DNA of 30,082 bases from positions 1 through 30,082 of the IMG/VR virus record IMGVR_UViG_3300025890_000088; one strand, written 5' to 3'. Under the pieces are notes generated by a model. The model saw nothing but the letters and a program-made list of their open reading frames with translations, did not search any database and was not told the origin of the DNA. Both the position numbers and the translations under genes were made by a program. Origin of the DNA: a virus. Within the stretch, counting starts at the first letter, position 1, and every line of letters begins with the position of its first letter. This document shows, one piece after another, positions 6,913 to 28,900 of this stretch.

Positions 6913-6969
6913 GTATCTAGGGGGTGGGGGGTAGGTGGGATGCCAGTTTTTATCATATATAATCGTAGT

Positions 6970-7101: not shown

Positions 7102-7743
7102 ATGACACAATTTACAAAACTTGAAACTGCAACACCAACGAAAACACAAGTTGATAAGGGATTAACTATTATCCGCGATCAATTATCATTGGATAAGAAA
7201 AGGGACGATTTAAAAGAGAATAAGAAATCGCTACATGATGTGTTCGCTACGTTTTTTGATGGTGTTCCTAATTGGGTGAATGAGATCTGGAATAGCCCGG
7301 GCAATAACCCAATGAGCAATACGCATTTTGACGTGAACATGTTTGCACGTGCCTATTGCGGTATGTTGGCTAGTCCACAATATACCGAGATCCTAGAATT
7401 TACTCATGGTTTAGCCGAGAGTAAAGACAAGGCAACATTTACTATTTGGTTTACTGATAAGAAAAAAGGTAAACTGGTCAAATTAGAGCAGACCAAAGAA
7501 AAGAGAAAATGGATATCTTGGTTATCTACTCAATTCACTAATCGAGTACACTTGATCTGTGATAAAGAACGCAAGAAAAAAGAAGTAACTATCGTTAGTG
7601 AAATAAACGGTGGTGTGAAGCGTATTCTTAAAGCTTTGGAAAATGATAAATTCAAAGGTCAAAAGAGCGCCAAGCATATATCGGAAATCCAACGCCAGAT
7701 TATCGGGCTTCAAGATTACGGTATCAATGTAACACTAAAGTAA
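7102..7743 (+). CDS. Lys-rich early protein of unknown function, 213 aa
   Basis: I do not recognise the family. The protein is very rich in lysine and should be basic. A helical N-terminal part (1-50) is followed by a region with many aromatic residues ('VPNWVNEIWNSPGNN', 'MFARAYCGMLASPQYTEILEF') and a basic C-terminal half with strand-like segments ('TFTIWFTDKKKGKLVKL', 'EVTIVSEINGG'). No signal peptide, membrane helix or nuclease motif is visible. The start has AAGGAA 8-9 bases upstream. It stands alone: its own promoter and palindrome upstream and a strong terminator 8 bases after the stop. This suits an immediate-early or regulatory gene made separately from the operon; DNA or RNA binding is suggested only by charge. 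Confidence 0.85.
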   Translation: MTQFTKLETATPTKTQVDKGLTIIRDQLSLDKKRDDLKENKKSLHDVFATFFDGVPNWVNEIWNSPGNNPMSNTHFDVNMFARAYCGMLASPQYTEILEFTHGLAESKDKATFTIWFTDKKKGKLVKLEQTKEKRKWISWLSTQFTNRVHLICDKERKKKEVTIVSEINGGVKRILKALENDKFKGQKSAKHISEIQRQIIGLQDYGINVTLK

Positions 7744-7750
7744 TACCTTC

Positions 7751-7780
7751 GGGGAACCTTCGGGTTCCCCACTTTTTTTG
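7751..7780 (+). terminator. Strong intrinsic terminator after the 213-aa gene
   Basis: GGGGAACC-TTCG-GGTTCCCC, an 8-bp perfect stem with a stable UUCG tetraloop (7751-7770), followed by ACTTTTTTTG. A second T-run follows at 7784-7791. It isolates the first early gene from the rest. Confidence 0.93.
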
Positions 7781-7844
7781 TGCCTTTTTTTCTGACGACC
7801 TCAGACATGTTTGCATATGGCCTTTGATCGCGCCCGCCCGGGAA

Positions 7845-7869
7845 GCCAGTTATCGTTCTAGCAGTACGC
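7845..7869 (+). repeat. 25-bp direct repeat, copy 1
   Basis: Begins GCCAGTTATCG and ends GCAGTACGC. It is identical base for base to 8016-8040, with unrelated flanks, 171 bases apart. Confidence 0.85.
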
Positions 7870-7939
7870 GAGAAGTAGATCTCCAGTTATTCAGTTATTC
7901 AGAATGTAGGGCCGGTTATAACCAGTTTACTATCTTAGC

Positions 7940-7951
7940 CAGACATGTCTG
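7940..7951. repeat. CAGACATGTCTG palindrome, copy 2
   Basis: A perfect 12-bp palindrome identical to 6970-6981, in the non-coding block between the first terminator and the operon promoter. Confidence 0.6.
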
Positions 7952-7987
7952 TGTGTAGTGTTGTAAAGGCCCAGCTCTTCAGGCCCG

Positions 7988-8007
7988 TGTTATTATTGAT
8001 AATAACA
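7988..8007. promoter_or_regulatory. Dispersed palindrome, site 2 (putative operator)
   Basis: Core GTTATTATTGATAATAAC (7989-8006), with a flanking T/A pair that extends it to 20 bp. It lies between the two copies of the 25-bp direct repeat. Confidence 0.72.
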
Positions 8008-8015
8008 TGTATGAG

Positions 8016-8040
8016 GCCAGTTATCGTTCTAGCAGTACGC
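8016..8040 (+). repeat. 25-bp direct repeat, copy 2
   Basis: Identical to 7845-7869. It ends immediately before the GTAACC cluster. Confidence 0.85.
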
Positions 8041-8041
8041 A

Positions 8042-8320
8042 TAATGTAACCGCTAATGTAACCAAAAACCCCCCTAATGTAACCACCGTGTAACTTGTAA
8101 GTGTATGTTATTATTATATTGTTACTTTGTTACCTATTTTAAATATATAGAGTACCATGAAGCCTCTTTCGTCCGTGATCAGGCGATTACGCCTCAATTT
8201 AGATCTCTGAAATTACCCCCCACCTATCCCCTAAAAAACGGTTACAAAGTAACATTGTAATCTTATCAATGACTTATGCCAACCTCAGTGGTTACAATAC
8301 AGGTTACATGGTTACAATAC
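8042..8320. repeat. GTAACC/GGTTAC iteron cluster (candidate origin)
   Basis: Three TAATGTAACC direct repeats (8042, 8054, 8075) are followed by GTAACT (8090), GTTACT (8121), GTTACC (8129), GGTTACAAAGTAAC (8240-8253), and then GGTTACAATAC, GGTTACATG, GGTTACAATAC (8290, 8302, 8310). The left copies read GTAACC and the right copies read its complement GGTTAC, around an AT-rich core. This layout is common at initiator-bound replication origins. No experimental basis; it could also bind a regulator. Confidence 0.55.
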
Positions 8321-8373
8321 ACATTTCGGCGTATAGACGTACATTGATTGACCAGAACACGTTTGTACATCAT

Positions 8374-8402
8374 TTGACATTTAGGATGTTATATGCTATA
8401 TT
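8374..8402 (+). promoter_or_regulatory. Main early-operon promoter
   Basis: TTGACA (8374-8379), a 17-base spacer and TATATT (8397-8402): a near-consensus sigma70 promoter. The expected start near 8409 gives a ~37-base leader before the zinc-ribbon gene. It is the strongest promoter seen in the window. Confidence 0.85.
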
Positions 8403-8445
8403 CTTCATCTAACTAGAAATCAGACAAAACAAAAGGAACAAACAA

Positions 8446-8643
8446 ATGAAGAAAGCAATTTGCATTGATTGCGGCGCACACTATGACGTACGCAGACATC
8501 TCTTAGGCTATCCTATATGCAAGCCATGTGGTGAAGACGCCGCACGTCAAGTCGTCCACTGTGTCGTACCATTACATAAAGGTAACTACACTGTGATATC
8601 TCGCAAGTCTGACTTGCTACACCTCAACCAAAAATGTCGATAG
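8446..8643 (+). CDS. Small zinc-ribbon phage protein, 65 aa
   Basis: Two CxxC knuckles, C6-x2-C9 and C25-x2-C28, form a zinc ribbon, followed by 'RQVVHCVVPLHKGNYTVISRKSDLLHLNQK'. I recall short proteins of this exact style ('KAICIDCG...GYPICKPCGE') in many aquatic phages; none has a proven function. AAGGAA lies 9 bases before the ATG. It is the first gene behind the strong early promoter, so it is made early and in quantity. A role in binding nucleic acid or a host protein is a guess based on the ribbon. Confidence 0.88.
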   Translation: MKKAICIDCGAHYDVRRHLLGYPICKPCGEDAARQVVHCVVPLHKGNYTVISRKSDLLHLNQKCR

Positions 8644-8960: not shown

Positions 8961-9139
8961 CTGACGAAGAAGTAATACGAGAGTTTATGCGTGAGATCAC
9001 GCTCGAACTTCCTAACAGGGAGCAACCTGTGCCTGATGTTATTACTGATAATAACTGGAGGCATATCGCTGATGTGATTAGCTTGGAGGCTGACCGCATC
9101 TTTCTAAACAACTACCAAGGTGAAGGAGAGCAATCATGA
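8957..9139 (+). CDS. Small acidic early protein, 60 aa
   Basis: A short, acidic, mostly helical protein of unknown function, coupled by ATGA overlap to the genes on both sides. Residues 'VITDNN' in the middle are encoded by one of the dispersed 18-bp palindromes, so part of the protein sequence may be set by the DNA site. Confidence 0.7.
   Translation: MTDEEVIREFMREITLELPNREQPVPDVITDNNWRHIADVISLEADRIFLNNYQGEGEQS
9038..9055. promoter_or_regulatory. Dispersed palindrome, site 4 (inside a gene)
   Basis: GTTATTACTGATAATAAC: 7-bp perfect arms around CTGA. It lies inside the 60-aa gene in the phase GTT ATT ACT GAT AAT AAC. Confidence 0.68.
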
Positions 9140-10071
9140 ATATGGTAGATACAAACTTGTCTGGGATTAATGTAGATGACTACCAATCCCTCGCAACATC
9201 AACATGTGTAGTAGAGTTGAATATCAGTCAACCACCGATCACGCGAGAGGACAGAGAAGCTACGCAGAAAATTGCAGAACTTTTCAAGCTTACTTTGCAT
9301 GACGTTAGCGGTAGGCCAATCAAGCCAGCGGCTGTACACAAGAACCTTTACGAAGGTTGGGAAGAGTACAAGAAGTTAAAAAGCTTCATTGGCTTTGTGA
9401 GACGTGAGCATGAAAGACTGACAGTTACTTGGTCTGACAGTGGATTACGTATCGTACCGACACTAGGTTATCTAGACTACATTGAAACCATGACAGGTTA
9501 TCAGGATCAGATGAACGATATCCTTGATAATGATCTTAAACAGACATATCCAGATGCAATGCGAGAAATGGAGCGTATCTTCGCTGACATGCACGACCCC
9601 TCTCTGTATTACGACTGGGATACGTTTCGGTCTAAGTATCGCTTCAGTCTCAAAACATGGGGTACACCTGACCCTGCGGATATACGTTGCGATCTACCTA
9701 AACAGGCTCTTGAGCAAATGAAGTCTGACATGCACAGCGCGGTACAAGAAAACGCGTTGAAGAGTAACAGCGATATGTGGAAACGTACGCACAAATGTTT
9801 GGAGCGTGTATCTAGAGCATTGGGCTACAAGGAGGACGGTAAGCTACAGACGTTCAAGGACACACTTGTTCCTGCGGCTCAAGAACTGGTAACACAGCTA
9901 CGCACGTTGAACATCACCAATGATGCCAAGATGGTCAATGCCGCAAACAAATTGGAACATATCTTCAAAGATAAAACCAATGAAGGGTTACGCGCAGAAG
10001 GTTACGAGCGTGACGAAACTAAAAGCGTGGTCGATGATGTCCTCGCTTCAATCCCCAACCTCGACATATAG
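9136..10071 (+). CDS. Protein of unknown function preceding the MoxR ATPase, 311 aa
   Basis: No catalytic motif is recognised. The protein is largely helical and charged, with no signal or membrane segment. It starts at an ATGA overlap with the previous gene and has GAAGGAGAG upstream. Its position, directly before a MoxR-type ATPase and a VWA metallopeptidase, matches phage cassettes where a third protein of similar size (often annotated DUF3150) precedes the pair. That family assignment is from gene order and memory only. If correct, it could be the substrate, adaptor or regulator of the ATPase-VWA machine. Confidence 0.82.
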   Translation: MNMVDTNLSGINVDDYQSLATSTCVVELNISQPPITREDREATQKIAELFKLTLHDVSGRPIKPAAVHKNLYEGWEEYKKLKSFIGFVRREHERLTVTWSDSGLRIVPTLGYLDYIETMTGYQDQMNDILDNDLKQTYPDAMREMERIFADMHDPSLYYDWDTFRSKYRFSLKTWGTPDPADIRCDLPKQALEQMKSDMHSAVQENALKSNSDMWKRTHKCLERVSRALGYKEDGKLQTFKDTLVPAAQELVTQLRTLNITNDAKMVNAANKLEHIFKDKTNEGLRAEGYERDETKSVVDDVLASIPNLDI

Positions 10072-10076
10072 TCGGG

Positions 10077-10094
10077 GTTATTATCAATAATAAC
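10077..10094. promoter_or_regulatory. Dispersed palindrome, site 5 (putative operator)
   Basis: GTTATTATCAATAATAAC, 5 bases after the stop of the 311-aa gene and about 28 bases before the MoxR ATPase start. The centre is slightly asymmetric; the 7-bp arms are perfect. Confidence 0.72.
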
Positions 10095-10122
10095 AAACCA
10101 TAAAACATAGGAGAACCATCTA

Positions 10123-11247
10123 ATGGTAAACTTTAATAACACTGCATCATACATGTATGCACAAGATCTCGACAACTGCGTTAACTCTATATCGTTGTTG
10201 GGTAACAAACTAACCTTCATCCTTGAGGGTGACATTGGCAACGGCAAATCAGCCACACTCAAAACGCTCGGGGAGAAACACCAGAAGCATCGTACATTCT
10301 ATTGCGATGCCACTACCAAAGACGTGGGCGATCTCATGCTACCGAAGTTCGTGGAGTTGGATAGGGATGGTCAGTTTGTTCGGTTCGTTGCGAACGAAGA
10401 ACTTGGCTTACACATTGACGGTCCAGTGATCATCATGGTCGATGAGTTTGGCAAGGCAAACAAGTCTGTGCAGAACGCATTACTTTGTCTGATGTACGAG
10501 CGCAAGATGGGTGGTTATGAATTACATCCAGAGAGTATCGTGTACGGTACAACTAACCTCGGAGCAGAAGGCGTTGGTGATCTACTACCACCTCATGCAC
10601 GGAACCGTTTCTGTATTATTACCGTCAAGAAGTGGGAGAACATACAGTGGATGGAGTGGGCTATCAATAATGACATTGATCCACAGATCATTTTGTTTGC
10701 GAAGGAACACCCCGAACTCTTTCACTCGTTCACTGATTACGAGAACCCTGATGACAATGAGTACATCTATCATCCGAAGGTACAAAGACGGGCGTTTGTC
10801 ACACCACGATCACTTGAGAACGCGTCTCACATTCTGAAGGTACGTGATCAACTCGGGCCTGACGTTACGGTAGCGAACTTGATCGGTTGTATTGGCGAAC
10901 GTGCGGCTACGGACTTGAAGGCTCAGTTCTCTCTATCGGATCAACTTGTCTCGTTGGATGAGATCAAGGACAATCCAAAGACTGCCAAAGTTCCTACCAG
11001 TGCGGCCGCTGTATGTTTGTTGATGTATCGTACTCTATCGAACATTGATCGTTCATGGATGGATGCGTGGATGGACTACATGGATCGCCTACCTGCCGAA
11101 GCGCATGGTATGTTCGTTAATGGTGTGTACGCAGACAAGTTTGACAAGAAGCGTCAACAGGCGGTGGTCACGAACAAGAAGTTCACTGACTTCACAATGG
11201 CAAACAACTATCTACGCGCAACTGATAAGAAATCGGCAGGTGTGTAA
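10123..11247 (+). CDS. MoxR/CbbQ-type AAA+ ATPase, 374 aa
   Basis: AAA+ enzymes of this type work with VWA-domain partners to remodel or mature other proteins. Visible: Walker A GDIGNGKS at 36-43, Walker B 'VIIMVDEFGKA' with D107-E108, sensor-1 'YGTTNLG' (N145) and an arginine-finger stretch 'HARNRF' (160-163). The C-terminal third is the helical lid plus an extension. AGGAG lies about 9 bases before the ATG. The downstream partner is the HExxH/VWA gene at 11508, with two microgenes between. Its stop overlaps the 28-aa gene start (TAATG). The pair is well known in bacteria and phages; the target in phage infection is not. Confidence 0.92.
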   Translation: MVNFNNTASYMYAQDLDNCVNSISLLGNKLTFILEGDIGNGKSATLKTLGEKHQKHRTFYCDATTKDVGDLMLPKFVELDRDGQFVRFVANEELGLHIDGPVIIMVDEFGKANKSVQNALLCLMYERKMGGYELHPESIVYGTTNLGAEGVGDLLPPHARNRFCIITVKKWENIQWMEWAINNDIDPQIILFAKEHPELFHSFTDYENPDDNEYIYHPKVQRRAFVTPRSLENASHILKVRDQLGPDVTVANLIGCIGERAATDLKAQFSLSDQLVSLDEIKDNPKTAKVPTSAAAVCLLMYRTLSNIDRSWMDAWMDYMDRLPAEAHGMFVNGVYADKFDKKRQQAVVTNKKFTDFTMANNYLRATDKKSAGV

Positions 11248-11333
11248 TGACACGTGAAGATCTATTAATCGGACTGCTTGCAGTCTTAATGGTGATGGGG
11301 TGGATACTCGGTGTCCACTTCCAAATATTCTAG
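11247..11333 (+). CDS. 28-aa single-span membrane microprotein
   Basis: Starts at a TAATG overlap with the ATPase stop and reads MTREDLLIGLLAVLMVMGWI then LGVHFQIF. Residues 6-24 form one uninterrupted hydrophobic helix with a charged N-terminus, so an inner-membrane peptide is likely. No separate ribosome site is seen; expression would depend on coupling. A small inverted repeat CGGAT/ATCCG (11334-11347) follows. The length makes this tentative, but the overlap and the clean hydrophobic helix favour a real gene. Confidence 0.55.
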   Translation: MTREDLLIGLLAVLMVMGWILGVHFQIF

Positions 11334-11369
11334 CGGATTAAAATCCGTATTTAAATCCAAGGAGGTACT

Positions 11370-11495
11370 ATGAGACAGAAGTTTGAAGAGGCTTTCGAAG
11401 TTATGAAAGACCTATACATGTTCATGCACGAAGACAAAGAAGCTTTGTATTTTAAACACACAATAACTCGTGAATATATACGAGTACAAAAGTAA
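11370..11495 (+). CDS. 41-aa helical microprotein
   Basis: Preceded by a perfect AAGGAGG 4-5 bases before the ATG, the best ribosome site in this stretch. The peptide (MRQKFEEAFEVMKDLYMFMH, then EDKEALYFKHTITREYIRVQK) is an amphipathic, charged helix with no known motif. It fills the gap between the ATPase and its VWA partner and may belong to that cassette. Confidence 0.65.
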   Translation: MRQKFEEAFEVMKDLYMFMHEDKEALYFKHTITREYIRVQK

Positions 11496-11507
11496 GGAGA
11501 ATAATCT

Positions 11508-12782
11508 ATGTTTGTATTAGAAAGTACTAATCTTACGCTAGAGCAACGTCTAGCTAAGAACACAATGCGTCTGATGAAGGACGCGGCTATACTAGCAGGT
11601 ATACTTATTATCGGTGATCGTAAGATTGATGACGCTGATCCTATGATGACCGCTTGCACTGATGGTCGTAACGAATGGTATGGTCGTGGCTACTGTGATC
11701 CATTGGGCGATGCACAACTACGCTTTGTCCTCATACATGAGAACTATCACAAGATGATGAAGCACCTTATTACGTGGGCGCACCTCTGGAAGATAGACCC
11801 TGAGTTGGCAAACATGTCTATGGACTACTATATCAACTATCTGATCTGGCATGAGTACAGTGACACGTCTAAGTATGGTGATCTAATCGACTGGATCGAT
11901 GGCGCACTGTATGATCCTAAGTACGATGACACATGGGATACCGCTCGGATATTCTGGGATCTGCATGATGACAAGCAGAAAGGTAAACCGCCACGTACGC
12001 CTACTAATCCTAAGACAGGGCTACCGTCCGATGTTATTAACGGTAATAACAAAGGGGGTGGTGTACCACAAGGGTTCCAAGACAAGCATGACTTTGAGAA
12101 AGCCAAGGACATGTCTGTGGAGGAAGCCAAAGAGAACGCTAAGGAGATTGATGAAGCTATACGTCAGGGCGATATCGTTGCAGGAAAAGCGGGAACTGGT
12201 GGCACAAGACATCTTGAGGAATTGCTCAAGCCACCGATTGACTTCCGTGAGCAGATACGTGAGTTCGTTACGACTTATTGTTCGGGCAAAGACTTCGGTA
12301 CGTACAACAAACCTAATCGTAGGTACTTGCAGTACGATATGATCATGCCCTCTACGGTCAGTGAGACAGTAGAAAGCTTGGTGTGTGCCAACGACATGTC
12401 TGGTTCTATTGGCGCTAACGAACTGAAGGTTGTGGTTGGAGCAACAGCCAAAGCCGCAATGGACGTTACACCGGAGGAACTGCACGTTATCTATTGGGAT
12501 ACAAAGGTGTCTGGACACGAACGCTATGAGAGGGACGAACTGGACAAGGTAGAGGATACTACAAAACCTTGTGGCGGTGGCGGTACTGATGTTCGCTGTG
12601 TGCCACCGTTCCTACGTGAACATCACGTCAATCCTACCGCGTCTATCGTTGTTACCGATGGTGAAATGTGGAATGGGTTCGGTGATTGGGATCATCCAGT
12701 ATTGTGGGTCATCGTGAACAATCCGTCTTGCGTACCGCCCGTAGGCAAACACGTCCATGTAAAGAGTGGAGACTTACGGTGA
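11508..12782 (+). CDS. VWA-domain protein with HExxH metallopeptidase motif, 424 aa
   Basis: Two domains as in DUF2201-type proteins. The N-terminal half has the zinc-peptidase motif HENYH at 77-81 and a later 'NMSMDYYIN' that could give a third ligand (D106). A hydrophilic linker (about 155-235) separates it from a von Willebrand A domain with MIDAS residues D296-x-S-G-S300, 'GGGTDVRC' (T360/D361) and 'VVTDGEMW' (D384). It ends at a GTGA overlap with the next gene. Partner ATPase is at 10123. In known MoxR/VWA pairs the ATPase remodels and the VWA protein holds or presents the target. Within the linker 'VINGNN' is encoded by an 18-bp palindrome. Confidence 0.9.
   Translation: MFVLESTNLTLEQRLAKNTMRLMKDAAILAGILIIGDRKIDDADPMMTACTDGRNEWYGRGYCDPLGDAQLRFVLIHENYHKMMKHLITWAHLWKIDPELANMSMDYYINYLIWHEYSDTSKYGDLIDWIDGALYDPKYDDTWDTARIFWDLHDDKQKGKPPRTPTNPKTGLPSDVINGNNKGGGVPQGFQDKHDFEKAKDMSVEEAKENAKEIDEAIRQGDIVAGKAGTGGTRHLEELLKPPIDFREQIREFVTTYCSGKDFGTYNKPNRRYLQYDMIMPSTVSETVESLVCANDMSGSIGANELKVVVGATAKAAMDVTPEELHVIYWDTKVSGHERYERDELDKVEDTTKPCGGGGTDVRCVPPFLREHHVNPTASIVVTDGEMWNGFGDWDHPVLWVIVNNPSCVPPVGKHVHVKSGDLR
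12033..12050. promoter_or_regulatory. Dispersed palindrome, site 6 (inside a gene)
   Basis: GTTATTAACGGTAATAAC: 7-bp perfect arms around ACGG, inside the VWA gene linker in the phase GTT ATT AAC GGT AAT AAC. Confidence 0.65.
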
Positions 12783-13409: not shown

Positions 13410-14315
13410 ATGGGAATAATTAAAGCAATATACACACCGATCTGTGACTTGGATTTTAGTTACGAAACTCATGGTGATGGTGAACTAAATCAAAGTTTCG
13501 AGACCACTAGCTTTCGTAAGACTGTGGAGAAAGCACTGAAGTGTAAGACGTGTTTTCGTGACAGAAACAGTGCGTGGGTCTATCGTGAGAATGATAACTT
13601 CACGCTTGGCTATGTTGGGTATTCGGATATGACACACTCAGGCACAGGTGGAGACAGGTACAACGTTGTTTCTAAGAACATCGAAAACAAAAAGTACAGT
13701 TCGGGTCAATCTAACTATCATGTGGCATCTGCATTACACATGGACAAGGCTGTACGTAATGCTCAAAAGCATTTGCGCCCGTGGTCACCTGTGGAGCATA
13801 TCGCTATAAGTTTCGATGCGTTCAAGAGAGATTGGCGTGACGTAGGTTATCAAGCTGACAACGAATACAACGGCAAACTAAATGCGATGACTAATGACAT
13901 TCGAGAACGAGGTAACACGTTCAAGGAGTTGGGTCACTTGCTAACCAGTGGGTACGAGTTTCTGTACCCCAACGTACGTGTCATGATTGAGGAGATACAT
14001 ACCGCTTTGTCGGAGTTGAACGAGACTAAGAAGCGTCCAAAGATGCACAAGTTTGTCTACATACGTGAGTACTTTGGTGAGCAACAGGCGGCTAGGTTTC
14101 CAATCAATGCAGATGACTATTGGTTCGATCACAAGGCGTATCAGGCAGATCACAAACATATCCATTGGATCAATGCTGATGATCTGGACGAAAGTGAGAA
14201 ACGTAAGATCTCATCTTTGTCGTTCTTGGAGAATGGACAGTACATTGATGGTGTTGGCTTCAAGGCCGCAAGTAACTGTTACTATGTTGTGCCAGAAGAA
14301 GGGAGACAAGTATGA
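13410..14315 (+). CDS. Early protein of unknown function, 301 aa
   Basis: Not recognised. N-terminal 'CKTCFRDRNSAWVYREN' (C45, C48) and 'FTLGYVGYSDMTHSGTGGDRYNVVS' suggest a compact mixed domain; the middle is helical; the end (about 258-294: 'DLDESEKRKISSLSF...GVGFKAASNCYYVV') closely resembles the end of the 80-aa protein at 14914. AAGGAATGAACA precedes the ATG, the same initiation cassette as two other early genes. Its stop overlaps the XRE regulator start (ATGA-type), so the two are probably made together. No membrane segment. Confidence 0.82.
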   Translation: MGIIKAIYTPICDLDFSYETHGDGELNQSFETTSFRKTVEKALKCKTCFRDRNSAWVYRENDNFTLGYVGYSDMTHSGTGGDRYNVVSKNIENKKYSSGQSNYHVASALHMDKAVRNAQKHLRPWSPVEHIAISFDAFKRDWRDVGYQADNEYNGKLNAMTNDIRERGNTFKELGHLLTSGYEFLYPNVRVMIEEIHTALSELNETKKRPKMHKFVYIREYFGEQQAARFPINADDYWFDHKAYQADHKHIHWINADDLDESEKRKISSLSFLENGQYIDGVGFKAASNCYYVVPEEGRQV

Positions 14316-14767
14316 GTAGAGATATAGAAATAGTTATTAGGATAAGTATCCCCGATGAACTCGGGGATGTTATCAAGGTCGATAACAACGTGAAAGAGAA
14401 GGAAACCCCTAAATTTAGTCCAAGTAACATTCCTACTGATCTAATGGGTAAGTTAGTGTGGATGCAGTTACAGAAGGTACGTAAGGATAAGGGATACACC
14501 CAAGGCATTTTAGCTGATGCAGTTGATCTAAAACAAGTGTCTATCTCGCACGTAGAAAATGGCAGGACAATACCTTCACCTCAAGCACAGACACGTATAG
14601 CTATGGCTCTTGGTTATGAGCTAGGAGACTTGCTTGATGAAATGATGGACTCGATAGACTGGTACGCACATGAAGACGTAATCGAAGAAGAAATGAAGCA
14701 TCGTGCGAGGAGAGTACCTGCCCGATATAGACGCTACTCTCTTAGAAATGAAAGGAAAATAATATAA
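14312..14767 (+). CDS. XRE-family HTH transcription regulator, 151 aa
   Basis: A classic HTH_3 domain spans about 52-107: 'LQKVRKDKGYTQGILADAVDLKQVSISHVENGRTIPSPQAQTRIAMALGYELGDLL', where 'QVSISHVENGR' is the recognition helix region. An N-terminal ~45-residue extension and a basic, Arg-rich tail (about 130-150) flank it. It is the best candidate reader of the dispersed palindromes, one of which (14369) lies inside its own gene. Only one HTH is present, so it would need to dimerise on the symmetric site. It is coupled to the preceding gene and followed by three hairpins. It could instead be a Cro-like early regulator. Confidence 0.9.
   Translation: MSRDIEIVIRISIPDELGDVIKVDNNVKEKETPKFSPSNIPTDLMGKLVWMQLQKVRKDKGYTQGILADAVDLKQVSISHVENGRTIPSPQAQTRIAMALGYELGDLLDEMMDSIDWYAHEDVIEEEMKHRARRVPARYRRYSLRNERKII
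14369..14386. promoter_or_regulatory. Dispersed palindrome, site 8 (inside the XRE gene)
   Basis: GTTATCAAGGTCGATAAC: 6-bp perfect arms GTTATC/GATAAC, inside the regulator gene near its start (codes VIKVDN). A separate hairpin CCCCGA-TGAAC-TCGGGG (14350-14366) sits just before it. Confidence 0.58.
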
Positions 14768-14913: not shown

Positions 14914-15156
14914 ATGAATGAAACATATCGCGTAAAGATAAACCCAGACAACTCTACGTTCGAAATTACAAGTTTAGATATATTTACTCTTGAAATTGAC
15001 ATTTCGGGGGTATATATGTCAGAAACTGATTTGCCTGATTGGGCAAGAAGAAAACTGTCGGCACTCTCATTCTGTGATTGGGATAAAAGATCGACAGGTT
15101 CTATAGTTGGTGTTGGGAAGCGTATTAATGAACATACATTTTGGATATACAATTAA
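14914..15156 (+). CDS. Small early protein sharing a C-terminal domain with the 301-aa protein, 80 aa
   Basis: The first half is strand-rich ('YRVKINPDNSTFEITSLDIFTLEIDISGVYM'); the second half (39-79) reads 'DLPDWARRKLSALSF...GVGKRINEHTFWIY', matching 'DLDESEKRKISSLSF...GVGFKAASNCYYVV' in the 301-aa protein. The shared domain supports it as a real gene although no ribosome site is visible before the ATG; hairpin 3 lies immediately upstream. Function unknown. Confidence 0.72.
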   Translation: MNETYRVKINPDNSTFEITSLDIFTLEIDISGVYMSETDLPDWARRKLSALSFCDWDKRSTGSIVGVGKRINEHTFWIYN

Positions 15157-16806: not shown

Positions 16807-17238
16807 ATGGGTAAGAAACAAGAAAAGGCGTGGAAGTATTTACTTCTAAACAAAAGCGCGACAGCTAAAGAGTTAGCCGAGGCCGTGGGTATATCTTACA
16901 CTTATGCGCTGAGTATTAAAAAACGAATTGGAACACCGCAAGAAATATTAGATGCGCCAGATAAATTAACTAGGTCCGATGTACTGGATACAGCAAAGAA
17001 TTTAGTCAACGGAGATAGAGCCGAACAGCATGGCGATGCCGAGAACAACTTTGTACTCATGGCGGCATACTGGAACGCGCACCTTGGACTTAGAGATTTT
17101 ATATCTGTTGATGACGTACCGATCATGTTGGCCTTGATGAAAGTAGCGAGGTTACACGGTGACGGCACAAAGAACATAGACAACTATGTAGATGTCTGTG
17201 GGTATATGTCTTTGGGCGGTGAGATTTCTCAACTGTGA
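16807..17238 (+). CDS. HTH plus DUF6378-like protein, 143 aa
   Basis: Residues 17-41 ('SATAKELAEAVGISYTYALSIKKRI') form a helix-turn-helix. Residues about 57-143 ('DVLDTAKNLVNGDRAEQHGDAENNF...VPIMLALMKVARLHGDGTKNIDNYVDVCGYMSLG') match from memory the phage DUF6378 family, a small all-helical domain with conserved GDR, HGD and DNYVD motifs that resembles MazG-type folds. Its activity is not established. GGGAG lies before the ATG and the stop overlaps the DNA polymerase GTG. The fused HTH is an unusual addition and makes DNA binding plausible. Confidence 0.8.
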   Translation: MGKKQEKAWKYLLLNKSATAKELAEAVGISYTYALSIKKRIGTPQEILDAPDKLTRSDVLDTAKNLVNGDRAEQHGDAENNFVLMAAYWNAHLGLRDFISVDDVPIMLALMKVARLHGDGTKNIDNYVDVCGYMSLGGEISQL

Positions 17239-19058
17239 ACTTTGTAACTCTAGACTTCGAAACTTATTACGACAGAGAATACTCGTTACGCAAGTTAACG
17301 ACTGAAGAATACGTGCGTGATAAAAGGTTCGAGGTCATAGGGCTTGCAATAAAGATAGGTGACAGACCTACGTTTTGGATAGAGGGTGCTGCACGAGTCA
17401 AGAGTTTCCTAACAGAAGCAGACTTCTCTGGGTGCGCCATCCTCTGTCACAACACGATGTTTGACGGTGCGATATTGGACTGGTTATATGATGTACGTCC
17501 AAAAGTTTGGCTTGATACCCTGTGTATGGCGAGAGCATTACATGGTGTAGATCAAAGTGTATCGCTAAAAAACGTAGCCGAAAGGTATGGTGTTGGAGTC
17601 AAAGGTACAGAAATACAGAACACAATGGGTAAACATATAGATGACTTCACTACCGAGGAGTTATCTCGATTTGCTGACTATGCTATAAACGATGTTGATC
17701 TAACGTATGACATATTCAAGCTGATGTTACCTAACTTTCCCCAACAAGAATTAGAACTAATAGACGTTACATTAAGAATGTATATAGAGCCAACGCTACG
17801 TCTTGATTTGGCTGGGCTACAAGAACATCTTACTGAGACACGTTCACGTAAGGAGGCGTTATTGGAAGGAGCAGGAGTAGCGAAAGAGGAGTTGATGTCC
17901 AACCCCAAGTTTGCCGCACTGCTGATAAGTCTCGGTGTAGAACCGCCCATGAAAGTAAGTCCAACCACAGGCAAAGCAACATTTGCATTTGCAAAATCAG
18001 ATGAAGGGTTCAAGGCGTTAGCAGAACATGAGAGCGATAAGGTTCAATCCCTAGTTGCCGCTCGACTGGGTACTAAAAGCACTTTGGAAGAAACACGTAC
18101 AGAGAGGTTTATCTCTATTGCAAAACGCGGGCTGCTCCCTGTACCCGTCCGTTACTATGCCGCACATACAGGGAGATGGGGTGGAGATGATAAGATAAAT
18201 CTACAGAATCTACCAAGTCGCGGTGTCAATGGTAAGAAACTAAAGAAGAGTATTATAGCGCCAGTTGGTCATACTCTTATAGATGCAGACAGTTCTCAGA
18301 TTGAAGCGCGAGTGTTAGCTTGGCTGTCCGAGCAGGACGACTTGGTTGATCAGTTCGCCAACGGTGAAGATGTCTACATAAAGATGGCTAGTTCCATTTA
18401 CGCCGTCCCCGAAGACCAAGTTACCAAAGACCAGAGATTTGTAGGAAAGACCACGATCTTGGGAGCGGGATACGGTATGGGGTATGTGAAGTTCGGAGCG
18501 CAACTCAAGACCTTTGGGTATGAAGTACCCGAGGCGGAGGCGAAGCGGATTATATCTGTATACAGAGAGACGTATCCATTCATTGGAGATTTGTGGCAAG
18601 CGGCAAACAGGTGCATAAAAGAAATGCACAGTGGCAATTTGTTCAGGTTTGGTCGGTCTGGAGTGCTTGACGTTAACGTATCTTCCCGGGCAATCGTTTT
18701 GCCATCACAGCTAGAGATGTCTTACACTGATCTAGATGCTACTACGGAAGGCGGGCGAACTGAGTACCATTATAAAACACGCCAAGGTCGTACTAGAATA
18801 TACGGTGGCAAGGTAGTCGAGAATGTATGCCAAGCTATTGCTCGTTGTATTATAGGGCATCAAATGTTACAAATAGCTAAAAAATATAGAGTAGTATTAA
18901 CCGTCCATGATAGTATCGTATGTTGCGTACCTAACCAGCTCGCAGCAGAAGCACGGGAATATATAGAGAGCTGTATGCGTACGACACCTGATTGGGCCGC
19001 AGGTCTACCTATCGATTGCGAAAGCGGTATAGGTAAGAGTTATGGAGATTGCGAATAA
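17235..19058 (+). CDS. polA: DNA polymerase, family A, with 3'-5' exonuclease, 607 aa
   Basis: The phage replicative polymerase. Proofreading domain: 'TLDFETYYD' with D7/E9, 'CHNTMFDG' (D77) and 'DYAINDVDLTYDIF'. Polymerase domain: motif A 'DADSSQIEARVLAWL' (D350, D352), motif B 'RFVGKTTILGAGYGMG' (R401, K405, Y413) and motif C 'LTVHDSIV' (H558, D559). No 5'-3' exonuclease domain, as usual in phages. The position equal to Phe762 of E. coli Pol I is Leu (L409). Starts with GTG overlapping the previous stop; its own stop overlaps the next ATG. Core of the replication module. Confidence 0.96.
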   Translation: MNFVTLDFETYYDREYSLRKLTTEEYVRDKRFEVIGLAIKIGDRPTFWIEGAARVKSFLTEADFSGCAILCHNTMFDGAILDWLYDVRPKVWLDTLCMARALHGVDQSVSLKNVAERYGVGVKGTEIQNTMGKHIDDFTTEELSRFADYAINDVDLTYDIFKLMLPNFPQQELELIDVTLRMYIEPTLRLDLAGLQEHLTETRSRKEALLEGAGVAKEELMSNPKFAALLISLGVEPPMKVSPTTGKATFAFAKSDEGFKALAEHESDKVQSLVAARLGTKSTLEETRTERFISIAKRGLLPVPVRYYAAHTGRWGGDDKINLQNLPSRGVNGKKLKKSIIAPVGHTLIDADSSQIEARVLAWLSEQDDLVDQFANGEDVYIKMASSIYAVPEDQVTKDQRFVGKTTILGAGYGMGYVKFGAQLKTFGYEVPEAEAKRIISVYRETYPFIGDLWQAANRCIKEMHSGNLFRFGRSGVLDVNVSSRAIVLPSQLEMSYTDLDATTEGGRTEYHYKTRQGRTRIYGGKVVENVCQAIARCIIGHQMLQIAKKYRVVLTVHDSIVCCVPNQLAAEAREYIESCMRTTPDWAAGLPIDCESGIGKSYGDCE

Positions 19059-21480: not shown

Positions 21481-21876
21481 GTGTCTGTATCAATAGAGAA
21501 CCTTACAAGCGCATACTTAAACATTAGAGCCAAACGTTCAGAGCTTTCTACTAAGTTTAAGAAAGAAGATGCGGAACTTGTAGAAGCGCAAACTCAACTC
21601 AAAGCGGCACTACTAAACTATTGTGATGAGCAGGGTGTTGAGAGCGTTAAGACTGCTCAAGGTTTGGTCTACAAAACAAGCAAGGAAAAATATTGGACAT
21701 ATGATTGGGATCATTTCCACGCATTTGTCTTGGAGAATAGAGTTCCTGAATTGCTTGACCGTAGAATAAATCAAACAAACCTACGAGAGTTTATTGAAGA
21801 TAACCCTGATAAACTACCAAAGGGGTTAAACAAATCTGTAGATGTGTCAGTAACAGTAAGGAAGCCAAGCAAATGA
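21481..21876 (+). CDS. Conserved phage protein of unknown function, 131 aa
   Basis: Helical N-terminus ('LTSAYLNIRAKRSELSTKFKKEDAELVEAQTQLKAALLNYC'), then a strand-rich part ('GVESVKTAQGLVYKTSKEKYWTYDWDHFHAFVLEN') and an ending 'LPKGLNKSVDVSVTVRKPSK'. I recall this exact layout from many phage replication modules, next to ssDNA-binding or helicase genes, always without known function. GTG start with GGAGAA upstream. Its stop overlaps the next ATG (ATGA). Confidence 0.85.
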   Translation: MSVSIENLTSAYLNIRAKRSELSTKFKKEDAELVEAQTQLKAALLNYCDEQGVESVKTAQGLVYKTSKEKYWTYDWDHFHAFVLENRVPELLDRRINQTNLREFIEDNPDKLPKGLNKSVDVSVTVRKPSK

Positions 21877-22091
21877 CAGATAAATTAGAGTTTGATTATT
21901 CTAAAAAGAAATATGTTGATTCGTCAACAATAGCAGAGTACTTTGGTGTCTCACCATCGACTGTACGGTTGTGGGTTAAAGAAGAACGTATCCCACGGAG
22001 TACATACATAAGGGCGGGAAGGGAAACTATCCGCTATGATCTAGCGTCCATAGAGGCGCATTTAACCCAAGGAGAACAGAATGGCGAATGA
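21873..22091 (+). CDS. Excisionase/MerR-like HTH protein, 72 aa
   Basis: Residues 14-62 form a winged helix-turn-helix of the excisionase/AlpA (HTH_17) type: 'YVDSSTIAEYFGVSPSTVRLWVKEERIPRSTYIRAGRETIRYDLASIEAHL'. In phages such proteins act as excisionases, as activators, or as DNA-bending factors. No integrase lies in the window. It overlaps the ssDNA-binding gene by 11 bases, which ties it to the replication operon and makes an origin or transcription role as likely as excision. Confidence 0.85.
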   Translation: MTDKLEFDYSKKKYVDSSTIAEYFGVSPSTVRLWVKEERIPRSTYIRAGRETIRYDLASIEAHLTQGEQNGE

Positions 22092-22803
22092 AACTTTTAT
22101 AATCGCAGACGTAACTGCAATGTACCCGAAGATCGATAAGACATATCGATACGATGAGAAAGCGGGTGAGAAAGGTGGTTGGGTCGAGTGCAAAGCCACC
22201 GATGCGGGCGCACAGTACAAAGTAAACTTTATTATGGAGCAGTCTGTAGCTGAAGACTTGTACACACGTATGGAGAAGATCTATGCGGGCAGTCGTAGAT
22301 CAAACTGGCCTGAAGAACTAAAGGCTCCTACTGATATATTTAAGGAGACTGATGAAGGCACTTGGGAAGGGTCTGCTAATATCAAAGGTCAGTACAGTAA
22401 CAGAGTTGTACCTGTGCCAGATCAGTTTGACGCTGACGCTAATTTGTTACCAAAAGATTTTCAACTTACTAGTGGTAGCACAGTCAATATCATGGTTGAG
22501 TTCGTACCCTATGCCATGACTAAAGAGAACTACGGTGTGTCTCTAAGACTACGTCAGGTTCAAGTTACTAAACTTGCGGAGCGTCAATCGTACAATCCGT
22601 TTAAGAAAGTTGAGGGGGGTTTCGTTGCAGGTAAAGAAACCACACCATCCTTTGGCGCACTTCCAGAAATCGAAGACGGTATGGAAGATGTCAAGGAACC
22701 AGAGAAGGTCGTTAAAATGAAGTCTAAGGAGCAAGCTACGGCTCCTGCAACTGAAGAAGACCTTAGTGGATTAGTCAACAAATGGGGAACCAAGAAAAAA
22801 TAG
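22081..22803 (+). CDS. Single-stranded DNA-binding protein, gp2.5/DUF2815-like, 240 aa
   Basis: Strand-rich OB-fold-like body (about 1-165: 'YPKIDKTYRYDEKAGEKGGWVECKATDAGAQYKVNFIM', 'RVVPVPDQFDADANLLPKDFQLTSGSTVNIMVEFVPYAM'), then a long disordered, acidic tail region (about 195-228: 'PEIEDGMEDVKEPEKV'), as in phage ssDNA-binding proteins whose tails contact polymerase. The very end is basic ('KWGTKKK'), unlike the acidic, aromatic last residue of T7 gp2.5. Coats ssDNA at the fork. ACCCAAGGAGAACAG precedes the ATG. A terminator follows 14 bases after the stop. Confidence 0.8.
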   Translation: MANETFIIADVTAMYPKIDKTYRYDEKAGEKGGWVECKATDAGAQYKVNFIMEQSVAEDLYTRMEKIYAGSRRSNWPEELKAPTDIFKETDEGTWEGSANIKGQYSNRVVPVPDQFDADANLLPKDFQLTSGSTVNIMVEFVPYAMTKENYGVSLRLRQVQVTKLAERQSYNPFKKVEGGFVAGKETTPSFGALPEIEDGMEDVKEPEKVVKMKSKEQATAPATEEDLSGLVNKWGTKKK

Positions 22804-22865: not shown

Positions 22866-25643
22866 ATGAAAACAATAGACTTTTTAAAGTCAGTTTTGGG
22901 AGACAATGGACTATACTGTGCTTGGGGATTCAAAGGAAACAAAAGAGTACAGCAGTTCTACAAAACTGTAGAAGAATTAGAGACCGCTGCGTATGAATAT
23001 GACACAGACGGTTATGATATATACTATGCACTAGCTACCTATAAAGAAGCGGGTGAGCAAAAATCACCGGAGATGGTGCTTGGTAGAGAACAAAGCAACG
23101 TACAAGAGATGCGTTCTTTTTTCCTAGATTTAGATTGTGGTGAGAAGAAAGATTACCCATCACAAGAGGCGGCAGTGGACGCACTACAAGAGTTTCTTGC
23201 GGAGGCTTGTCTACCTGAACCTATACTAGTCAACTCGGGAAATGGGGTACATGTATATTGGCCCTTAGATAATCCTGTGTCCCGTGATAAGTGGGAGCCA
23301 GTAGCTAACAAGCTCAAACGTGTCTGTAGGAGTTTGGGACTTAGGGCCGATCCTGTACGCACGTCCGATGCCGCTAGTATTTTACGTATACCCGCAACAC
23401 ATAACCATAAGAGCGATACACCTAAAGAAGTAGTCGTATATGGAGATGGTACTGAGTTAACCTCTCTTGAAGGGTTCAGCAGTGCGCTTGCGCCAGATGA
23501 AGAGGATAAGACAGACGAAGCGTATACGTTTGGTTCGGCAGAAGCATTTACTCCGCATAAGAGTAATAAAGAATACTTGTTTGAGACCATCATGCATAAG
23601 ACAATGGATAACGTGGGGTGTAGTCAGCTAGGTTACATTGCATCGTATCAATCACTTGTCGATGAACCTTTATGGGTATCGGGGCTGTCTATAGCCAAAC
23701 ACTGTACGGATGCAGCGTATGCGACAAAGGCCATATCTGATGAGCATCCTGACTTTAACGAAGAGATGCTACAGAAGAAGCTTGAAGGTATTAGTCACAG
23801 ACACACCTGTATTACCTTTGATGATAGACGCCCATATGTGTGCGGTAGCTGCCCACACTGGGGTAAGATACGATCACCGATAGATCTTGGAGAGTATATA
23901 GTAGAGGCAGAGCCAGAGCCAGATATGCCTACGTACCCTGCTCCATACTTTAGGGGTAAGAACGGTGGTGTATATAAAAGAGTACAAGATGCCGAAGGTA
24001 ATCCAGAAGATTTAGAGATATATAAAAACGATCTCTTTATAACGAAACGGCTACACGACCCTGATCAGGGAGAGATAGCTGTGTATAAACTGAAGCTACC
24101 TAAAGATGGCGTAAGAGAGTTTAGCATACCGCTAGCTTCTGTGTCGTCCACTGAAGAGTTTCGCAAGCACATGTCTGCACAGGGAGTTACATCTATGGGT
24201 GCAGGATTAAAATTATTAATGGAGTATTCTATGAGATGGGTTGATGAATTACAGGCACAAGGGGCGGCTGATAAAGCGCACCAACAATTTGGATGGACTG
24301 ATGATACACTAGAGGAGTTCGTACTGGGCGACCGACTGGTGGTAGAAACAGATATAAAGTTTAGCCCACCATCTGCAAAAACTTCAGGGTTAGTGAGTGC
24401 ATTTGTTCCTGCAGGTACTGCCGATAGACAGAAAGAACTGTTTAACTTCTACAATCAAGACGGGTTTGAGTTGCACAGGTTTATTATTGGTATGGGCTTT
24501 GGCACTGCTTTGATGCCTATGACAGGCATAAATAGTATGTTGGTTCATTTGTTTGGTGGCACAGGGGTAGGTAAGACTACGGCTCAGATGATGGCGTTAT
24601 CTGTATGGGGTCACCCCGAACTTTTGATGAACCAGAGAGACGATACCTACAACGCTATGATGAACCGTGGAGAAGTCTTACATAACATACTGCTGTCTAT
24701 GGATGAGATGACAAACATAACAGGACTAGAGTTCTCTAAGTTTGTGTATCAACTATCTGGTGGTAGACAAAAGAACAGACTGGCTGTTAGTGGAAACCAA
24801 GAAAGGACAAGAGGTAGACCGTGGGAGTTGCTTAGTGTTTCGTCAGCTAACACAAGTGCATGGGAATTACTTAGACAGGGCAAGGCCGAACCCAAAGCAG
24901 AAATGCAACGGTTACTAGAGATAGACGTGCCTAGTATGATCAAGCCTGATCCAAAGCTAAAGATTGTTACAGACGCTTTGTTTGAAGATGTAAAGAAGAA
25001 CTATGGATGGTTTGCTGAAGAATACGTGCAGTGGGTGATAGCCAACAAAGCTACCGTTCGTGGTCTGATGCAACAAGCTAGACAGAGAATAGACGAAGCA
25101 GCGGGGCTTACTTCCGAGAACAGGTTCTGGAGCGCGGGGTGTTCGGCATCTATGGTAGGACTTCTTATAGCATCTAAGTTAGGTATTGTAGATTACCCTA
25201 TGGACAAACAGTTTGACTGGATCGTAGACTTGTTACGAAAGCAGCGTAATACTGTAAATGATATAGGCTCGTCTGTGACTGAGACTATGAATGACTTTAT
25301 TGCAGAGCATTGGAGTAACATTCTACACATAAGAAGTAGTCAGGATAAAAGAAGTGACGGTGTAGAAGAGATAGTTATACCTGAATTTAACCCACGATCT
25401 CTGGTTGCACGGTACGAGACAGATAGAAGAAAGTTATACATTCGTCCGACACCGTTACGAGAGTGGTGCGCTAAACAGCAGCTAAACTACGCAGAGCTTG
25501 TTAAAAATTTAAAGGCAGACATGAACGCAAAGTCGAACGTAGTCGTGCGATTTGGTAAGGGTACAAAGTTTGACATCCCACCGTGTAAAGCACTTGAATT
25601 AGACTTTAGTATTGATAGCGCAAATGAATCAGAAAGTACTTAA
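22866..25643 (+). CDS. Primase-helicase: primpol-like N-terminus with DUF927-type helicase, 925 aa
   Basis: N-terminal archaeo-eukaryotic-primase-like signatures: 'FFLDLDC' (D88, D90), 'VNSGNGVHVYWPL' (H129) and 'DAASILRIPATHNHK' (171-182). A zinc-binding stretch follows (C315, C326, C329: 'TCITFDDRRPYVCGSCPHWGKI'). The C-terminal DUF927-like ATPase has Walker A GGTGVGKTT (564-572) and Walker B 'ILLSMDE' (D613-E614), then 'NRLAVSGNQERTRGRPWELLSVSSAN'. It would make primers and unwind the fork, replacing the T7-type gp4 arrangement. It is separated from the upstream genes by a terminator with no obvious new promoter. Confidence 0.92.
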   Translation: MKTIDFLKSVLGDNGLYCAWGFKGNKRVQQFYKTVEELETAAYEYDTDGYDIYYALATYKEAGEQKSPEMVLGREQSNVQEMRSFFLDLDCGEKKDYPSQEAAVDALQEFLAEACLPEPILVNSGNGVHVYWPLDNPVSRDKWEPVANKLKRVCRSLGLRADPVRTSDAASILRIPATHNHKSDTPKEVVVYGDGTELTSLEGFSSALAPDEEDKTDEAYTFGSAEAFTPHKSNKEYLFETIMHKTMDNVGCSQLGYIASYQSLVDEPLWVSGLSIAKHCTDAAYATKAISDEHPDFNEEMLQKKLEGISHRHTCITFDDRRPYVCGSCPHWGKIRSPIDLGEYIVEAEPEPDMPTYPAPYFRGKNGGVYKRVQDAEGNPEDLEIYKNDLFITKRLHDPDQGEIAVYKLKLPKDGVREFSIPLASVSSTEEFRKHMSAQGVTSMGAGLKLLMEYSMRWVDELQAQGAADKAHQQFGWTDDTLEEFVLGDRLVVETDIKFSPPSAKTSGLVSAFVPAGTADRQKELFNFYNQDGFELHRFIIGMGFGTALMPMTGINSMLVHLFGGTGVGKTTAQMMALSVWGHPELLMNQRDDTYNAMMNRGEVLHNILLSMDEMTNITGLEFSKFVYQLSGGRQKNRLAVSGNQERTRGRPWELLSVSSANTSAWELLRQGKAEPKAEMQRLLEIDVPSMIKPDPKLKIVTDALFEDVKKNYGWFAEEYVQWVIANKATVRGLMQQARQRIDEAAGLTSENRFWSAGCSASMVGLLIASKLGIVDYPMDKQFDWIVDLLRKQRNTVNDIGSSVTETMNDFIAEHWSNILHIRSSQDKRSDGVEEIVIPEFNPRSLVARYETDRRKLYIRPTPLREWCAKQQLNYAELVKNLKADMNAKSNVVVRFGKGTKFDIPPCKALELDFSIDSANESEST

Positions 25644-25948: not shown

Positions 25949-28900
25949 CTAATTAAAGATAGTTGGATCTCCGTATCTCTCAGCTTGTTCTACCAATATA
26001 TTCTTTAACCTTGGGTTTAAAGTGAGGCCATTGTACGCCCCGGTACGTTGACGTATCCTACCACGTATAGACTTCTCTAGGTTGTCTTGTAGAATTGGAT
26101 ACCCCGGATAGCGTTGGTTATATTCTGCTATTCTTTCCCCTGCTCTTTGCAAACCACTAACATCTCCATCAAAATACGCTCTGGCGTACATGTTATAGAT
26201 ACTTCTTCTCTTTCTAAGTATAGCTTTCTGTAGCCTCATAGTTTGTGAATTTGTCGCCATTTGCGCGGAATATGCTGAAGGGCTAAACCCAAAAAACTGA
26301 GCGACTAGATGTCCATCTGCAATGTCAGCTACAATAGGCTTACCGTCCATAGTATATGCACCGCCATCTTGTGCAAACCTAGCCGCCTTCTGCATATTCT
26401 TTATAGCTGCGGGAGATATAGTCTCTATACCACGTCTTAGCTTATTCATATCTCCGTCAGCAGCACCTTCTAATATTTGAGTAGCTCCACGTCCTGTGTT
26501 TAAGGTTATACCTACAACAGGACCACCCAACTGCTCTATTGCTCTAAACAACAGAGGCCAATCTCTGTCCATCATGGAGTCTCTATATATTAGCTCACTA
26601 AGTCCAACACGAGAAGATATATTAACACCTGTAAAATAGTTTACCCCTCCTCTGTATACTCCATCATGTAGGTAGGCACGTGCCATTGTCTTTGCGTCAT
26701 CGTCTTCTCCGCCGGGGTCCATTCCCATAGCAGCCATAACCGTGTCTATGACTGTTGTTGCTAATCCAAATCCGGGCATACCGTATACCCCTGCCAAGAG
26801 ACCAGACGATCCATAAATACCTGCTAATTGAAACAACGCCAGACGTCTATCCGCGGGGGAGCCTTTTGTTATCTTCATGACCATCTCAGTAAGCATACCG
26901 ATCATCGACACACCGTATCGTTTATACATGAAGATAACTGCGCCTATGTTTTTTCTACCAAGTTCGGGAGCAGCGGCTGCGGCTATACCACCGTTTGTAG
27001 TTTCTGTATCATAGACTGCATCCTGCGCGGCTTTAAGTACTAAGTCGGGGTTGGCTCTCTGCTCTGGAGATAATTTACGTAAACCTCCACGGAATGCAGC
27101 GAACAAAGCCGCTTCTCTATTTACACGTTCTGTGTGGTGTTGGATGAACCCAGTAAATTTGTTAAACTTAGACCAGAAGCCCCCCATCCTATCTACGTCT
27201 AATATCTCATGATCAAGAGATCTTTTAAACTGTCCTAGATCTACGCCAGTATCTATGAACACTTGCAGCTCTTCTGGGGTTACATCTTGTTTGTTAAGGA
27301 TACGTCTCTGTGTGTTTGTTAAGTTTCTAGGGTCCACGTTACTTATCGAGTACCCCGAGCCTACTTCAGTCTCAATAGGTTGATTGTTGGCATCTGTGCC
27401 GTAACCCATAATTGTACGAGTGCCGCCACTATTTTTCATAAGAGACATAGCACCTTTTATACCTCTCATAGTGGTTGGATACCCATATTTAGCGCCAAGG
27501 TATGGAAGAGTAACTAGTGGTATTTGTGTCAAATTAACAAGCCCACCTGATATGTTCATACCGAGTGTCATATTAAATCCAAAACCTGTTAAAGCTCTAG
27601 ACGCCCTACTACGTTCTGGTATTGGTCCATCTTTTACTGTCTCACGTAGAGAGTTAAGAAGTTCGTTTTTGTCTATACGATTACCACCGCTCTCGTTCAT
27701 TTCTTTTTCGACTTTGCCAAGTGCTTGCTGCATCTTTGCCTTATATTTTATGTTGACAGTCTGTCGTATTAAAGACCGTGAGCGATCCGAGATAGCCTTT
27801 ATAGAATCTTCATTATACCCCATACGCGCTTTGATAAGGTCACCACCCTTACGCATCCTAAACGATTGTAAGTATGATGTTTCAGGTAATGTTTTAAGTA
27901 TGACATCAGCTATCTCGTTCTTTGTATCAGCAGATAGCTCACCACTGCTTTCTAGCTTAGACATTAATTCGTTGACAAAAGATGCGTTTGGCGCACGTCT
28001 CATAAAACTTGTAGCGTCTAGTTCTTGTGTAGATTCTACAGCAAGTATATCGTTTAGTGCATCTGTTTCAGACATCTGAGACATACCTTGAGTACGGGAT
28101 TCGAGAGCAATCCTTGCGCTAGAACCCTCTGGAGCGTTTAGTATGTTTTGTCTAGCGTCTGCTACTATGACTTCTCTAGCTCGATCTCTGGCCTGTTCCC
28201 CTTGAAACGAGTCTGTGTACCTTTCTATGCGCCCTGTTAGTGGGTCGATAGCATTAAGAGCTAACCAATAATCGCCGGGTTCACGCTGCAATGGGGTATA
28301 AGGCTCTAACTTACCTTTTTTTATTAAGTTAGTGTAGAAAGTATCTCGTATAGCAGCCCTAGATTGTTCTGGTACGCCAGATGCCTCTAAGCGTGTGTCT
28401 ACAGCATTAATGACATCTTCTACTAAACCCTTAAACATATTCTGAGACTGATGATAAAGGCGTATAGGCTCACCCCTATCTACGCGTTGTAGTCTCTTAT
28501 AATCTTTTCGTGCTATCTCATATACTTTATACACATCAGGAGCGTACTTATCCCTAGCTTCTGTCTCTGAAAGCGCAGGATTTACTTGATAAGAAGTACC
28601 TACGTTATTTATACGGTTCCATGCAGCTATATTCTTTTTACTAGACTTGTTAGCCCACTTAACAATCCCATCATTTACTTGATTTACTTTATCATAACCC
28701 GACTGTAGTTCTCCGCCTGACTGGTTTACTAGATTATTTATACTTGCTGCGCTAGGTGAGAATTTCTCAGCCATTCTTGTGACGTAATGTAGAGGAGTAG
28801 CTTTTAACACCCATCCTTTAAACGTTCCTAGTTTGTCTTGACTCCAGTCTTTAGGTGTCTGTTTTGTTAACTCATCAAATTTATTATACGCTGTTTCATC

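Follow-up and report, generated by a model that had tools for sequence, protein, structure and literature searches.

A probable initiator-driven replication origin of SaPI-Rep type, read by comparison among related tailed phages

In the origins of SaPI pathogenicity islands, sets of iterons lie on both sides of an AT-rich core. The alpha protein of phage P4 acts as primase, helicase and origin recognition factor in a single polypeptide, at an ori with iterons, and P4 uses a second site, crr. Phage lambda O has no helicase of its own and relies on P to bring in host DnaB, and the lambda iterons lie inside the O gene. SaPI Rep and Cch2 of SCCmec elements bind their iterons via a C-terminal domain, the iterons of Cch2 being direct repeats (PMC7581432). 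For most uncultured phages the origin and its initiator are not known; in the locus described here an origin could be read by comparison, together with its likely initiator.

The DNA analyzed (the window) is the whole of virus record IMGVR_UViG_3300025890_000088, 30,082 bases long and probably a fragment, the phage map in relatives being about 58–66 kb. Comparison with these relatives strongly supports reading one non-coding block as a replication origin, and about 7842–8405 is in our judgment probably an initiator-driven origin of SaPI-Rep type in a tailed phage, with iterons that would be bound by a 925-aa primase-helicase. The predicted initiator resembles SaPIbov1 Rep in its DUF927-type MCM-like helicase, related to the solved structure 8tch, and the locus resembles a SaPI origin in having iterons that a C-terminal domain may recognize. 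In contrast to SaPIbov1, the helicase is fused with a PrimPol domain in one protein. The SaPI origin lies directly downstream of rep, whereas the block is 14.5 kb from the putative initiator gene (8.0–8.4 kb versus 22.9–25.6 kb, with similar separation in relatives), sits at the divergence point of two gene arms, belongs to a tailed phage and not to a satellite, and carries additional CCAGTT boxes and an IHF-like site. Structurally, the helicase part is matched best by SCCmec Cch (5dgk), but SCCmec is a mobile cassette element whose putative origin immediately follows the Cch2 operon, and Cch2 belongs to another helicase family. The arrangement is also reminiscent of P4, in which one phage protein serves the same three functions at ori iterons, although the primase and helicase domains of alpha are of other types and crr is an extra site, and of lambda, where phage iterons beside an AT-rich segment act with host-factor assistance, although O lacks a helicase and its gene contains the iterons.

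Eleven GTAAC/GTTAC sites fall within 8046–8315 (starts 8046–8311), whereas 300 order-1 Markov-shuffled versions of the window had at most 6 in any 280-nt stretch; at least ten in about 270 bases had been claimed in the initial annotation. GTAACC/GGTTAC occurs 7 times against a shuffle maximum of 4, and no other 7-mer of the record is as clustered as GGTTACA (7 copies versus a maximum of 5 in 15 Markov-2 simulations). On the plus strand, three exact copies of TAATGTAACC (L1–L3; 8042–8051, 8054–8063 and 8075–8084) are followed by a degenerate iteron, GTGTAAC (L4; 8088–8094). On the minus strand lie an inward pair, GTTACTTTGTTACC (8121–8134), inside the AT-rich segment; a right inverted pair, GGTTACAAAGTAACAT (8240–8255), identical across all relatives with the GTAACC iteron type; and exact GGTTACA copies R1–R3 (8290–8296, 8302–8308 and 8310–8316). 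With the copy at 8240, the latter make up the four GGTTACA repeats previously listed beside the three TAATGTAACC repeats, all seven of which proved exact. The layout is one of nested inversion, in which GTTACTTTGTTACC mirrors GGTTACAAAGTAAC (8240–8253) and the inverted arms, 43 nt each, are 74% complementary. Between the opposed repeats, the AT-rich segment noted earlier at 8101–8152 has 19% G+C, and 8104–8153 is the least stable 50-bp duplex among all 30,082 bases by nearest-neighbor energies; 8101–8153 is the predicted unwinding segment. The gap of ∼700 bp that holds these elements (7744–8445) contains zero open reading frames of at least 60 aa, in agreement with the annotated non-coding character of the block.

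The functional block seems to be wider than the 8042–8320 first delimited. Two kinds of element absent from that description, CCAGTT boxes and an IHF-like site, recur alongside the iterons in relatives. An intrinsic terminator of the upstream gene (7751–7780, plus strand), also found in aligned relatives, forms the left border of the non-coding block. Two plus-strand copies of the 25-mer GCCAGTTATCGTTCTAGCAGTACGC, of RCCAGTT-N-GC type, follow at 7845–7869 (box 1) and at 8016–8040 (box 2), the second 30 nt before the first iteron core. Nearly all relatives carry between one and three boxes of this kind, with an RCCAGTT start and a GC-rich end, close to their left iterons; single-sequence folds were inconsistent as to a hairpin in the box, and a structured RNA was rejected, as 7600–8500 yielded no Rfam match above gathering score. 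Downstream of the right inverted iterons is a candidate IHF site, identified by sequence match (TATCAATGACTTA, matching WATCARNNNNTTR; 8264–8276, plus strand). It is exact in 10 of the 17 origins tested, against a chance expectation of 0.0033 per 50-bp segment, and has a constant offset wherever two inverted iterons precede it; as six of the ten belong to one lineage, the exact matches amount to five lineages. In lambda attP, arm-type opposed repeats are likewise combined with IHF, and the block recalls that site in outline. A phage attachment site, composed of integrase arm sites and IHF, nonetheless has next to no probability here and was rejected: a search directed at tyrosine integrases (PF00589) gave no match in any of 13 related records, all possibly incomplete, of which three measure 55–66 kb.

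A predicted sigma-70 promoter, TTGACA-17-TATATT with an extended −10 (11 of 12; 8374–8402, plus strand), reads into the replication module, and promoter-like sequences were also seen by eye in relatives. This promoter is strong and lies 58 bp right of the last iteron, the gene arms diverge at the block, and the window encodes an HTH_3 protein, all of which would suit an operator array in which a repressor or activator on the repeats controls the early promoter and leftward transcription, with no origin involved. We regard this explanation as quite improbable. The iterons reach 330 bp upstream without overlapping the promoter, relatives that carry the very same iterons lack the HTH_3 gene, and the placement of the least stable duplex between opposed iterons would be left unexplained. 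The block might also serve both purposes, as origin and as promoter control.

Leftward genes for the portal, the large terminase and a putative small terminase, the last named from its position, lie left of the block, and one rightward gene of 213 aa, with no function assigned, intervenes between the block and this terminase arm. To the right, rightward genes encode an AAA ATPase, VWA proteins, a family A DNA polymerase (PolA; 17235–19058, plus strand), an exonuclease, an SNF2 helicase, a gp2.5-like single-strand binding protein (SSB; 22081–22803, plus strand) and, in the same module, the 925-aa PrimPol–DUF927 MCM-like helicase fusion (22866–25643, plus strand). The DarB-like gene that follows (25949–30052; 1367 aa, related to antirestriction proteins) points leftward, so the gene arms run apart in the vicinity of the block and meet close to 25.8 kb. 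Gene order is the same in four near-complete relatives (58–66 kb); one of them, G036, has a self-overlap of 150 nt at 99.3%, which indicates a complete and circular map. A conserved trio of genes at 9136–12782, encoding a 311-aa protein, an AAA_5 ATPase and a VWA/DUF2201 metallopeptidase-like protein, lies to the right of the origin in every relative whose sequence is complete at that place.

With a putative small terminase gene about 1.2 kb away, and with contigs of several relatives ending between that gene and the boxes, the block could be imagined as a terminase-bound packaging site (cos or pac). The contig ends in question, however, map within or adjacent to a G-rich tract that neighbors the small terminase gene (position 6920 in the window) and lie outside the iterons, and the large terminase is 72–87% identical across iteron types, leaving very little probability for a packaging role of the block. 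The G-rich tract itself (GGGGGTGGGGGGTAGGTGGG; 6920–6940 in the window) precedes the putative small terminase gene by about 120 bp, and each of the relatives scanned (13 besides the window) has one or several copies; contigs G007, G031, G033, G043 and G048 start in or beside it. It may signal packaging or a DNA end, or else be a sequence at which assemblies break.

The origin reading is supported by recurrence of the block at the same syntenic place, with the putative small terminase gene on one side and the 311-aa/ATPase/VWA genes on the other. All six close relatives whose contigs span this place have the block, at 93–100% identity in G002–G006 and with kept architecture but lower identity in G001. 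About 18 more distant contigs have no GTAACC; other clustered repeats, detected by an unbiased scan for clustered words, occupy the same place and include ATGTTACC, ATGTTCC, ATGTTCG, ATATTCG and AAGTTC. Iterons were assigned as ATGTTCC in G019, G031, G032, G033 and G036; ATGTTCG in G010 and G020; ATGTTCT/G in G007, G009, L095, L101 and G047; ATGTTAC in G022, G043 and G048; ATATTCG in G015; AAGTTC in L099; CAGAAC in L100; and, by eye, a degenerate form in L098. In most of these contigs an AT-rich core is bracketed by iterons that face it from either side. The proposal that the repeats mark an origin thus gains support from a conserved place and layout, with the block itself or analogous changed iterons under the same gene order, and from the melting-prone core. 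All relatives with shared iterons are metagenomic contigs, and no isolated phage matched at the DNA level. Scans of two isolated relatives, Rhizobium phage RHph_TM27A and Pseudomonas phage Rollin, gave no clear iterons, the Rhizobium phage having an AT-rich non-coding stretch at a similar place; KPP25 was compared for gene order alone.

The 925-aa primase-helicase matched Pfam DUF927 (2.5e-26) and, in profile searches, PDB entries 8tch (2.1e-19) and 5dgk (3.9e-14), which were also the top Foldseek matches of its predicted structure (mean pLDDT 83). Entry 8tch is titled "Initiation of replication protein with helicase activity encoded by Pathogenicity Island SaPIBov1". The C-terminal two thirds of the model aligned with SCCmec Cch (5dgk; VIA-align Z 30.6, 479 aligned, rmsd 6.6) up to model residue 919 and with SaPIbov1 Rep (8tch; Z 25.6, 443 aligned, rmsd 7.7) up to residue 915, the overall rmsd being high in these multi-domain alignments, while the N-terminal PrimPol domain aligned with the PrimPol of cyanophage S-2L (Z 19.0, rmsd 2.5, 174 aligned). 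Recognition of the iterons by this protein is likely, well supported by homology to SaPIbov1 Rep and SCCmec Cch and moderately by covariation. HTH proteins or the primase-helicase had initially been named as candidate initiators; the latter was favored by its SaPI Rep/Cch homology and the association of its C terminus with iteron type. The HTH_3 protein (14312–14767) was rejected because its gene is missing from G001–G004, which keep the iterons. This gene is present in the window and in the near-identical G005 and absent from all other relatives examined, perhaps as a recent insertion.

Covariation was seen between G036 and G043, nearly the same phage in the replication arm, whose iterons differ (ATGTTCC versus ATGTTACC) within nearly identical flanks; such an iteron swap between close relatives is a direct test of joint change in initiator and origin specificity. 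As far as residue 860 the two primase-helicases share 91% identity, and residues 875–917 form the most diverged stretch of the protein (12 of 39 differ, versus 82 of 889 elsewhere; p = 2e-4). In G031 and G033, which share iterons, the same C-terminal stretch is 90% identical as compared to 77% elsewhere. Across 15 genomes, no part of the protein is as strongly associated with iteron type as the C-terminal segments at 871–923, although there are exceptions (0 of 5000 label permutations, phylogeny not corrected for). The association rests on few lineages and is imperfect, as the window and G001 have the same iteron core, yet their C termini are 53% identical versus 68% elsewhere.

The origin may instead be real but read by another phage protein, with the primase-helicase recruited later, an arrangement we consider unlikely. 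Candidate readers include a 301-aa protein (13410–14315), a MerR/HTH_17-like protein (21873–22091) and the 311-aa protein (9136–10071), all with genes also in relatives. In favor of this arrangement, the 301-aa (50.6% identical) and HTH_17-like (70.4%) proteins are far more diverged than their neighbors between G036 and G043, whose iterons differ; the 311-aa protein is 97% identical in this pair despite the differing iterons. The HTH_17-like protein is, however, 61% identical between the window and G002 despite the same iterons. The 301-aa protein is equally diverged where iterons are equal (56% in G031/G032, 72% in the window and G002) and so appears simply fast-evolving; it was rejected as initiator on this same-iteron control, and its AlphaFold model (mean pLDDT 87.6) had no PDB match with E <0.001. 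Almost every relative encodes a member of the 301-aa family, in most cases a short distance ahead of polA, and a C-terminal motif resembles, by eye, the neighboring 80-aa protein (14914–15156).

Taking the primase-helicase as the reader of the iterons, we infer a course of initiation in which the PrimPol–DUF927 helicase would use its C-terminal domain to bind the opposed GTAACC iterons, and helicase rings would assemble on both sides of the core, probably with DNA bending at the IHF-like site. The primase-helicase would then melt the AT-rich segment (8101–8153) and prime with its own N-terminal PrimPol domain, and PolA and SSB would extend two forks, the rightward one via the replication arm and the leftward one via the terminase and structural arm, both co-directional with transcription. 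On this model, SaPI-Rep-like initiation, known from satellites and cassettes, would be the main replication start of free-living tailed phages. More tentatively, and with somewhat less than even confidence, the phages may represent a widespread lineage with a composite origin, its iterons read by the PrimPol–MCM-like fusion initiator and its 25-nt CCAGTT boxes by a second factor, in which iteron sequence and initiator C terminus swap together as a specificity module between near-identical phages such as G036 and G043. All parts are of known kinds; in the open-licence literature searched, no description was found of a fused PrimPol–DUF927 initiator with a remote composite origin, extra boxes and co-change of iterons and C terminus.

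Cumulative GC skew of the window decreases as far as ∼6.5 kb and then increases up to ∼26 kb, tracking gene direction. Its minimum lies near 6.0–6.5 kb, where gene direction flips, and not at 8.1–8.3 kb, where a switch had been expected. On rotated maps, four of five near-complete relatives (G001, G010, G032 and G036) likewise have their skew minimum 1.4–1.9 kb left of the iterons, a position confounded by gene direction; in the fifth, G007, the minimum is far from the block. The skew, a weak test, is compatible with an origin here, and because it follows gene direction it cannot separate replication from transcription.

An 18-bp palindrome, GTTATTAT(NN)ATAATAAC, occurs in eight copies in the window (7054, 7989, 8643, 9038, 10077, 12033, 15166 and 19984), several of them in gaps right before genes of the rightward arm. 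Other palindromes occupy such intergenic gaps in relatives (e.g., GTTATAACACGTGTTATAAC in G036). The element is likely a dispersed operator or other regulatory site, its sequence also being variable between phages.
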